From Candidatus Magasanikiibacteriota bacterium (GTDB lineage Bacteria > Patescibacteriota > Patescibacteriia > Magasanikbacterales > UBA10003): a stretch of 15,747 bases of DNA. Shown here piece after piece: positions 1,267 to 12,485 of this stretch. Position 1 is the stretch's first letter. Every line of letters begins with the position of its first letter. The notes beneath the pieces are model-generated. The model worked only from the letters and a program-made list of their open reading frames with translations. It was not told where the DNA came from and made no database searches. Both the position numbers and the translations under genes were made by a program. The stretch lies in the NCBI GenBank assembly GCA_026396495.1, contig JAPLWR010000031.1:1445-17191 (forward strand), read 5' to 3'.

Positions 1267-1300
1267 CTAAAAAAGAGGGCCCTACACGAATGTAGAGCCC
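1267..1300 (-). terminator. Rho-independent terminator with UUCG loop
   Basis: On the minus strand GGGCTCTACA (plus 1291-1300) pairs over all ten bases, one as G-U, with TGTAGGGCCC (1277-1286) around a TTCG tetraloop, followed by TCTTTTTT. It ends the structured non-coding transcript that starts near 1940, just before the next promoter at 1234. Confidence 0.9.
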
Positions 1301-1680
1301 AAGAGTTATGAGGCATTAGTTCTAACTGGTTTGTACCCCAGCTAAGCTTTCGCTGTCTAAAGGTTTTTAGACGAACCTTGGTTTGCCAACCAAGATAGCC
1401 TCGGCGTTGTTATACCTCCTTGTCCCAGCTCTTCCCCAGGCTGGATTGGGGCTGCCGCCTGTACCCTTCATCACATCGTGGGCAGGTCGACAATCTCGAA
1501 GTTGGAATTGTTTTACCCCTTTCGTGGCGATGGGCGGCGATTAGGCGGCCCGGAGGGGTTTTCCTGATGGTTTTGCTTGTTTGCAAGCAGGGCTCTCATC
1601 ACATCCCAGCAGTTGTACTTCTACTCCCGTTTCGCTCCCAACTAAAGCTACTAAGGTTTCGAGAGTTCTATTTATGTTTT

Positions 1681-1737
1681 AGCGCCGTCTGCTATGGCGC
1701 TCGTTTCCGCAGCCGCATTTTACTGCCTCCTTCAGTC
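1681..1737 (-). repeat. Shine-Dalgarno/mini-ORF module, copy 2, inside the structured RNA
   Basis: Reading the minus strand: CTGAAGGAGG, seven bases, ATG, then an 8-codon frame (MRLRKRAP, stop at 1692-1694) that runs into a hairpin AGCGCC/GGCGCT (1681-1686 with 1696-1701). The order and much of the sequence match the copy at 1816-1872: GAAGGAGGC, GTA(A/T)AATGCGGC, GCGCCATA, GGCGC. CACGCC precedes the module in both copies. Confidence 0.6.
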
Positions 1738-1815
1738 TGGCGTGTTGTTGTTGGCGACTCGGACGTCTCTTGAAGGTTGTCGACGATGCGCTTTGATAGC
1801 AGTATTTGTGTCATT

Positions 1816-1872
1816 GCGCCCTGCGATCGTATGGCGCTTCTTACCACTGCCGCATTATACCGCCTCCTTCGG
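1816..1872 (-). repeat. Shine-Dalgarno/mini-ORF module, copy 1, inside the structured RNA
   Basis: Reading the minus strand: CGAAGGAGGCG, then an ATG at 1853-1855 seven bases after GGAGG, opening a 4-codon frame (MRQW, stop TAA 1841-1843), then hairpin arms GCGCC (1833-1837) and GGCGC (1816-1820). It is about 137 nt 5' of the second copy in the RNA. An upstream CGCCT could pair with the AGGCG that overlaps the SD. Confidence 0.6.
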
Positions 1873-1945
1873 TTTTGGGTATGAGGGCAGAATCAGGCGT
1901 GCTGGCCTTCAGGATGAGACAGACCCCATCGCAGCCAGACCAATG

Positions 1946-9909: not shown

Positions 9910-10750
9910 ATGCTTGTTAATCTTAATAAAGTCTTAATTCCTGCCAGACGTGATGGTTACGCTGTACCTGCTTTTAATTTTAATAATCTAGAATTTCTAC
10001 AAGCTTTAACGGAGGCGGCCCAAGAATCCAATTCCCCTATTATTATCCAGACCAGCGAAGGCGCTTTAGAATATATGGGGTTAGATTATATTGGTGGAAT
10101 GGTTAAAGCAGCAGTCAAAAATATTAAAATTCCCCTAGTTTTCGTCCTTACTTTATGAAGAAAACGTGGCTAAAACCAAGCAGGTAGTTAAATGGGCCCA
10201 TGCTAAAAAAATGAGTGTAGAAGCAGAATTGGGAATATTAAAGGGGATAGAAGATAAAGTCTCCGCGGCTGAAAATGTTTTTACCAACCCAGAGCAAGCA
10301 GTAGATTTTGTTAAAAAAACTGGTTGTGATGTTTTGGCTGTGGCTATTGGTACTTCCCACGGGGCTTATAAATTTACCGGCTCTGGAAAATTAGATTTAG
10401 CTAGATTAAAAGAAATAGCCAGATTGGTTAAAATTCCTTTAGTCTTACACGGTGCGAGTGGTGTCCCCCAAAGATTGTTGGACTTAATAAAATTTCAATG
10501 TGAAAAAATTGGTGATTGTGAAAGATTGGGTGGAGCAAAAGGAGTACCAGACACAGAAATTTTGGGCGCAATTAAATTAGGTATTTCTAAAATCAATATT
10601 GATACAGACTTAAGAATGGCCTTTACAGCTGGTGTGCGCAACTCCCTGCTCCAAGATTTAAAAGTCTTTGATCCAAGAAAATATTTAGGTGCTGGCAAAG
10701 AAGAAGTAAAAAAAATTGCTTTAGAAAAAATTAAACTTTTTAAATCTTAA
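9910..10750 (+). pseudogene. fba: Class II fructose-bisphosphate aldolase, broken by an internal deletion and frameshift
   Basis: This would be the zinc-dependent aldolase of glycolysis and gluconeogenesis. The first frame (9910-10158) gives a normal start with GYAVPAFNFNNLEFLQA and SPIIIQTSEG, reaches IKIPLV at about residue 77, then reads FVLTL and stops. The second frame, from about 10142 to 10750, resumes as SSLLYEENVAKTKQVVKWAH and continues through SVEAELG, GTSHGAYK, LVLHGASG and KINIDTD to a normal C-terminus. Compared with known aldolases, the block between the fourth strand and PYEEN is missing, roughly 25-27 residues by alignment with the Bacillus enzyme as I remember it. That block normally contains HLDHG, with a zinc ligand and catalytic Asp, so even a corrected frame would be inactive. 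A genuine pseudogene or an assembly deletion are both possible. Spacing to the neighbours is normal for the operon (8 and 4 bases). Confidence 0.88.
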
Positions 10751-11996: not shown

Positions 11997-12485
11997 ATGA
12001 AGAAGACACTGAGTTGGGTTCTGGCCCTGGTGTTCGGTTCCTTGCTGTTCGCCCTGGTGCTCCACAAGCCGCGGGCGCAGACGGAGCCCCCCAAGATCGA
12101 GGTCTCGACTGGTGTCCTCATGATCTCCCAGATCTCCTACTGGGTGGAGGTGACCGAGGTGGGAGACGCCAGCGTGCACTCCGACGTAGTCGCCAAGATG
12201 TGGCGACTGGAAAACGGCAACCATCCGTCATTCATCACGGGCGTCGGGACGATCTACAAAGGGGAACTCCGCTGGGGGAAGATCTTCGTGATGGACCCCG
12301 AGAACACGGCCTGCGGCATGTTCTCCGCCAACTCCGCGGCGATCATCTGCGAGGAGGTCTCGGAACTGGCAGCCAACCGAGCCTTCTACCCACTCTTCAA
12401 TCTCTCCCCCCAGCAGCGCACCGAAGCCGCCTACCTCCTCTACGAGGGAGTGCGGGCCGTGATGCCCCATCCCAACTTCAACTGA
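11997..12485 (+). CDS. Exported hypothetical protein with signal peptide, 162 aa
   Basis: I do not recognise this protein. The N-terminus MKKTLSWVLALVFGSLLFALVL followed by HKPRAQ is a typical signal peptide or membrane anchor, with likely cleavage near Ala27-Gln28. The mature part of about 135 residues has mixed alpha/beta character, two cysteines (in NTACGMF and AIICEEV) that could form a disulfide, and no known motif. The ATG follows AAGGA with seven bases between, which together with the signal peptide decides the start over an overlapping +1 frame. Codon use is strongly GC-rich (62% in one counted line), opposite to the AT-rich ldh and trpS on each side, which suggests acquisition or a different expression regime. 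It is a single-gene unit with its own strong promoter, structured leader and terminator. Confidence 0.8.
   Translation: MKKTLSWVLALVFGSLLFALVLHKPRAQTEPPKIEVSTGVLMISQISYWVEVTEVGDASVHSDVVAKMWRLENGNHPSFITGVGTIYKGELRWGKIFVMDPENTACGMFSANSAAIICEEVSELAANRAFYPLFNLSPQQRTEAAYLLYEGVRAVMPHPNFN

Follow-up and report, generated by a model that had tools for sequence, protein, structure and literature searches.

A putative noncoding transcription unit carrying repeated translation-initiation signals downstream of ileS in a Candidatus Magasanikiibacteriota genome

A stretch of 15,747 nucleotides from a Candidatus Magasanikiibacteriota bacterium (contig JAPLWR010000031.1; hereafter the window) carries on its minus strand, between ileS and a GC-rich ORF of 190 aa, what is plausibly a discrete noncoding transcription unit. 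Its sequence points to a lineage-specific noncoding transcript composed of translation-initiation parts and perhaps engaging ribosomes in trans, a reading that we hold tentatively and that could well prove mistaken. If true, a strong promoter of a very small genome would be devoted to an RNA in which most of the recognisable parts are of the ribosome-binding kind, which would open a testable question of translation control in such reduced bacteria. In the same genome, a pseudoknot leader supported by covariation, and absent from Rfam at gathering score, precedes several GC-rich genes, that of the 190-aa ORF among them.

The unit lies behind a promoter with 11 of 12 consensus bases (TTGACA-N17-TATACT with a TG extension; 1974-1946, minus strand). 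Exact TTGACA-N14-TGnTATA[AC]T sites number 28 genome-wide, this promoter among them, and the reversed control pattern has none. Three such exact promoters occur in the window, compared with 0.14 expected even when two mismatches are allowed; the second is found upstream of the 190-aa ORF (1234-1206, minus strand), and the third precedes a 162-aa ORF at 11997. The promoter of the unit overlaps an 11-pair hairpin downstream of ileS (1986-1957, minus strand), probably the ileS terminator, so placed that the -35 box falls within its loop. At the other end is an intrinsic terminator of 10 pairs with a UUCG tetraloop and a T run (1300-1277, minus strand), which is supported by its quality and not by its count since the same scan gave five terminator-like sites in 2.5 kb where 2.5 were expected. 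A noncoding transcript of about 640-670 nt without clear coding signal is predicted between the two (1939-1270, minus strand), with a start at ca. 1939 set by the promoter position, and we infer that the span is transcribed as one molecule.

On the transcript strand no ORF of 60 aa was found, the longest within the span having 58 and 51 aa, and the antisense 117-aa ORF of the span had no match in the protein collection. A codon-usage score trained on the genes of this genome was below 0 in all six frames for every 150-nt window tried in the first 640 nt (maximum -0.19). For known genes the mean score lies between +0.03 and +0.44, although the test is not absolute, single true-gene windows going down to -0.25 and wrong frames up to +0.34. 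The GC content of the span is 0.523, versus 0.363 for ileS, 0.462 for the RNase P RNA of this genome and 0.393 for its tmRNA, and its composition is A-rich and T-poor (0.293 and 0.184), unlike the GC-rich ORF beside it, for which A is 0.162 and T 0.244. A first-pass annotation of this DNA, which had described a consensus promoter, a UUCG-capped terminator on the same strand, the lack of a plausible protein and a raised GC, is borne out on all of these points.

The motif AAGGAGG occurs three times in 673 nt, a number seen in none of 2000 dinucleotide shuffles. Two of these Shine-Dalgarno sequences (SD) belong to a duplicated module. In module A (1881-1813, minus strand), a possible 4-bp hairpin ACCG/CGGU presents AAGGAGG in its loop and is followed by an AUG and then by a GCGCC/GGCGC hairpin, while in the second copy, module B (1744-1679, minus strand), the possible hairpin is ACUG/CAGU. 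The copies lie 137 nt apart and are equal at 40 of 51 positions, whereas 200 shuffles reach at most 31; because they are copies of each other, the two SD-AUG modules count as one observation. Differences between them are fewer in the module core (2/22) than outside it (9/29), which is not significant (p 0.09). One pair is altered on both sides between modules A and B, and this was rejected as support for structure, being uninformative in a two-sequence control in which 256 of 500 shuffles reached as much.

Behind SD1 (1869-1863, minus strand), a 7-nt spacer leads to a 4-codon ORF, MRQW (1855-1841), and behind SD2 (1732-1726, minus strand) a spacer of the same length leads to an 8-codon ORF, MRLRKRAP (1718-1692). 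Both modules thereby combine the strong SD, the few codons and the stop by which a drop-off minigene is recognised. NGG codons stand at positions 2 and 4 of both minigenes, and early NGG codons cause peptidyl-tRNA drop-off in E. coli according to one report (PMC12204400). Since the GC-rich gene at locus L164 likewise begins with AUG CGG, these codons are only suggestive of drop-off. Several GC-rich genes of this genome start 5-7 nt behind AAGGAGG and, at the level of sequence, the repeated SDs match the ribosome-binding sites of these genes.

The RNA of the window with apparent covariation support is the neighbouring leader (1188-1067, minus strand) and not the 670-nt span. This leader, of about 120 nt, is common to six strong-promoter GC-rich units of the genome, and the loci of the family are the one in the window, L153, L154, L159, L164, L173 and L183. 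Its layout comprises a long hairpin and then an H-type pseudoknot made of CCC, AA, stem 2, GGG, some five bases and the second strand of stem 2, shortly before the SD. The copy in front of the 190-aa ORF, with its pseudoknot at 1112-1086, was a seed of the leader model (R2) and scores 111.8 bits with it. All seven pairs of stem 2 form in 7/7 sequences, one of which comes from the congener G001, and 6/7 pairs change on both sides. The covariation score was reached by 0/500 shuffles and the count of two-sided changes by 9/500, bearing in mind that related sequences can exceed such shuffles. When the stem-2 partners are shifted by 1-3 columns, pairing drops from 98% to at most 57%; for stem 1, one of the seven leaders does not pair in the register tested. 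Over 382 genomes, R2 recovered six sites in the own genome (all of them seeds), G001 at 81 bits and, in five further genomes, one match each at 24-26 bits, near noise. At gathering score, Rfam gave no family on the leader loci except tRNAs. A literature search covering mostly non-subscription papers gave no report of either the leader or the 670-nt unit in the candidate phyla radiation, and the one paper found on both Patescibacteria and riboswitches mentions the latter only as a future tool.

A putative pseudoknot of the genus leader form is also found within the unit (CCCC-AA-UCCAGC-CU-GGGG-AAGA-GCUGGG; 1451-1424, minus strand), where a descriptor search detected it 2 nt before the third AAGGAGG, SD3 (1421-1415, minus strand). 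No ATG, GTG or TTG occurs 4-10 nt downstream of SD3 and no ORF of 40 aa begins within 70 nt behind it. The descriptor, to which this pseudoknot conforms, consists of a CCC/GGG stem 1, an AA loop, a stem 2 of 6-7 bp and an SD within 25 nt. As it was drawn up with the motif already known, the chance figures are optimistic: any such pseudoknot occurs in 17/2000 shuffled versions of the RNA, and one with GGAGG within 25 nt in none. The likeness to the genus leader resides in stem 1, the AA loop, a complementary stem 2 and the nearby SD, whereas the long upstream hairpin, the start codon and a GC-rich gene behind are lacking in the RNA. Stem 2 of this pseudoknot has six pairs, one of them G-U, versus seven in most leader copies; the pseudoknot also contains two additional unpaired bases, and the full model R2, which matches 1188-1067, has no match on the RNA. 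A count over 315 kb of own DNA gave 15 such pseudoknots, seven with an SD; a GC-rich ORF follows six of these seven, and the remaining one is that of the RNA described here. In relatives, ca. 327 kb of DNA from partly overlapping loci, read on both strands, gave five, none with an SD. This comparison is descriptive because the descriptor is post hoc and the own-DNA sample was partly chosen, 6/47 stretches having been picked for known units. The earlier suggestion that the repeated SDs hint at a ribosome-related role gains from their match to the ribosome-binding sites of GC-rich genes and from the position of SD3 behind a pseudoknot of the leader form.

Folding analyses indicate that strong structure is limited to the 3' end. 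The RNA as a whole folds with a z of -1.7, and 3/60 shuffles fold as well (0/20 in another run); in the same shuffling test the tmRNA and the RNase P RNA of this genome, taken as positive controls, reached -4.7 and -3.1. For the first 510 nt, z is 0.2, 44/80 shuffles are at least as stable, and pair-probability entries above 0.9 number 6 compared with a shuffle mean of 33. Nested helices of high predicted probability close positions 1-208 of the RNA in the full-length fold, but this domain folded alone is ordinary (z -0.98, 35/200 shuffles). At the 3' end, a five-way junction with a GAGGC/GCCUC closing stem and four hairpins is predicted (1407-1303, minus strand); these 105 nt have a z of -4.8, with 0/200 shuffles as good, while a slightly longer cut (1432-1300) is weaker (z -2.6, 1/200 shuffles). 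The best of fourteen 120-nt windows, 1422-1303, has a z of -5.0. GAAA, CAAA and UUCG hairpin loops are present in the predicted fold. No second copy of the junction was found in 334 kb, chiefly own DNA, where a covariance model of the 3' domain built from one sequence entered twice (R3) retrieved only itself. The dense hairpins claimed in the first-pass annotation are therefore real at the 3' end, and extending dense structure to the whole RNA is not supported. Of the large structured noncoding RNA that it proposed, the discrete noncoding transcript finds support in the sequence, and structure throughout the molecule does not.

Two other promoters of the genome are followed by far more strongly folded RNA. 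At L169, the 530 nt behind the promoter, before a GC-rich ORF, have a z of -10, and at L152, where the ORF start is cut by the contig end, the 440 nt behind the promoter have a z of -8.3; in both cases 0/80 shuffles are as stable, and no convincing Rfam match was found in either stretch. As large structured RNAs, both are stronger candidates than the 670-nt span.

Searches for relatives of the RNA, which had been proposed as checks, yielded no convincing homologue among 144 genomes by BLAST and 382 genomes with a covariance model. No Rfam family matched the span at gathering score; under lenient settings the best was sbrA, lying on the terminator, at 27.6 bits (gathering score 45), and the others were weaker. 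In the 144 relatives, the only strong BLAST match was the own copy, and at E up to 1 some match occurred in 101/144 genomes, the best with 35.6 bits (E 0.012), the weak ones being 16-43 nt long among the matches listed. Against phages and plasmids the best E was 8. A search of 380 genomes of the class with the module pattern gave two exact matches, both in the own genome, and seven elsewhere with three mismatches, compared with five for the reversed control. The covariance model of the duplicated module (R1), whose seeds are the two copies in this one RNA, scored these at 95 and 88 bits over 382 genomes and the best outside locus at 23 bits; at E up to 0.5 it matched in 79 other genomes. A search of 29 of these outside loci for another copy of the module brought up a single weak one, of 9 bits. 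Two outside loci were viewed in context and rejected as relatives: L078, the best of them, resembles the start of an ordinary gene at the end of its contig, and L081 overlaps the beginning of an ORF that is coding on the opposite strand. Module patterns in viral contigs and in a species-genome collection gave no convincing relative; on the loci so obtained R1 reached at best 22 bits, and on further such loci (80 of at least 120 scanned) there was none at E 0.01. Beyond the window, R1 had one match, of 10 bits, in 318 kb that were mostly own DNA. As far as could be searched, the unit thus appears confined to this lineage. A divergent tmRNA or RNase P RNA was discarded as an identity for it, normal copies of both being found above cut-off on other contigs.

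The context of the unit differs from that of the same-genus genome G001, the ileS protein of which is 74% identical. In G001, the interval between ileS and a NIF3-like gene (named by eye) contains a 270-aa ORF and no copy of the RNA unit, and no match to the unit above chance was detected elsewhere in that genome by BLAST or R1. In the genome studied here the same interval is occupied by the RNA, the 190-aa ORF and TerC, on a GC-rich segment. The 190-aa ORF (1063-491, minus strand) is membrane-protein-like by eye, and both it and a second GC-rich orphan, the 162-aa ORF (11997-12485, plus strand), returned only themselves among 5.77 billion proteins, in a search for relatives of the first that share short exact words. 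Strong promoters tend to be associated with GC-rich DNA in this genome: 14/25 scored promoters, those of this unit and of the 190-aa unit included, are followed by DNA with a GC content of 50% or more, versus 22/843 background windows from 40 contigs, the genome median being 35%.

Leader minigenes, of which lambda bar is one, share with the RNA a strong SD and few codons; here, the unit ends in a terminator and does not stand before a gene. In axe-txe and other cases, such minigenes combine a strong SD with few codons and have ribosome occupancy without a protein product, and those described acted in cis, in front of a gene (PMC8708949). The tisB mRNA of E. coli requires a pseudoknot in its 5' region to bind 30S subunits and S1 (PMC7708055). 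That pseudoknot is located close to the 5' end of the mRNA, with the standby site some 100 nt away from the ribosome-binding site, unlike the present one, which is separated by only 2 nt from an SD and belongs to an RNA that has no gene. The RNA had also been said to share the profile of ROOL, GOLLD, OLE and HEARO. The likeness amounts to several hundred nt without a protein, and the comparison is not supported, for lack of an Rfam gathering match, of covarying homologues and of any folding excess in the first 510 nt. GOLLD is reported to have bound ribosomes in pull-downs, and a phage or tRNA-island setting is described for GOLLD and ROOL (PMC12286853). The window contains no tRNA, its RNA has no convincing phage or viral-contig match, and five of its proteins had no PHROGs match below E 0.06. 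The tisB pseudoknot and the GOLLD pull-downs nonetheless provide parallels for a ribosome-binding RNA of this sort.

The reading proposed here would run as follows. The RNA would lie on a GC-rich segment which, between ileS and the NIF3-like gene, stands where the congener has a different gene. The RNA would be built of the same initiation parts as the GC-rich genes of the genus, namely two SD-AUG copies and a start-less pseudoknot-SD, followed by the compact five-way junction predicted at the 3' end and by the terminator. Its SDs may bind 30S subunits; two of the sites would lead only into ORFs of 4 and 8 codons, on both of which initiation would be abortive, and the third SD to no start, so that the RNA might occupy ribosomes, or a leader-binding factor, in trans. 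That it is specifically a ribosome-occupying RNA, whose duplicated drop-off minigenes and start-less pseudoknot-SD hold or cycle 30S subunits or a leader-reading factor and thereby tune the translation of GC-rich genes in trans, seems improbable as a complete account.

Part of the same evidence could be explained by decay, if the bodies of GC-rich genes had been lost or scrambled and only the promoter, initiation signals and terminator were left on a functionless transcript. Initiation modules without real genes, the absence of a homologue for any part and the GC-rich units into which other strong promoters of the genome lead would all fit, and we regard this as unlikely but deserving some weight. 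A long decay agrees poorly with a promoter, three SDs, a pseudoknot and a terminator that all look intact, and a recent one with the lack of any window positive for coding, even though true-gene windows also reach -0.25; the A-rich, T-poor composition is moreover unlike that of the neighbouring GC-rich ORF. There is little chance that the span represents a new class of large ornate structured RNA. The size, the promoter and terminator, the strong 3' junction and the confidently predicted helices closing positions 1-208 would suit such an RNA, but the first 510 nt have a z of 0.2 with few confident pairs, the 1-208 domain is ordinary when folded alone and no collection searched yielded a convincing homologue.

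Whether the terminator at 1300-1277 is conditional, and the RNA a long attenuating 5' leader of the 190-aa and TerC genes, was considered in the light of L169 and L152, where promoters precede 440-530 nt of highly folded RNA and then an ORF, in the same strand and order as here. This is rather improbable, as a separate promoter (1234-1206) and a separate leader of the genus type (1188-1067) precede the 190-aa gene. A CsrB-like sponge for CsrA could account for AAGGAGG in the possible hairpin loops of modules A and B and for the context of SD3, ACAAGGAGGU, which fits the CsrA consensus. It is largely refuted and highly improbable, CsrA having been found in 2/19 genomes searched and not in this one, a draft that is 93.33% complete.

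Several further observations were made on the GC-rich gene set and the window. Behind the 190-aa ORF (435-485) and TerC (G000:C112:879-929), 51 identical bases form a shared 3' element, for which the sole other match in the genome is of 17 bases, at chance level. Among GC-rich products at L179, L164, L157 and L163, an SPFH/Band 7 protein and a macro-domain protein were recognised above cut-off, and outer-membrane-barrel-like and transglycosylase-like products below it. At 5480-5300 (minus strand), the sequence is by eye similar to the region upstream of ileS in G001, and a GGTACC stretch recalls a T-box, an assignment that was rejected since no Rfam T-box matched there. Finally, adjacent ORFs at 9910-10750 (plus strand) resemble, by eye, one class II fructose-bisphosphate aldolase gene split in two frames.
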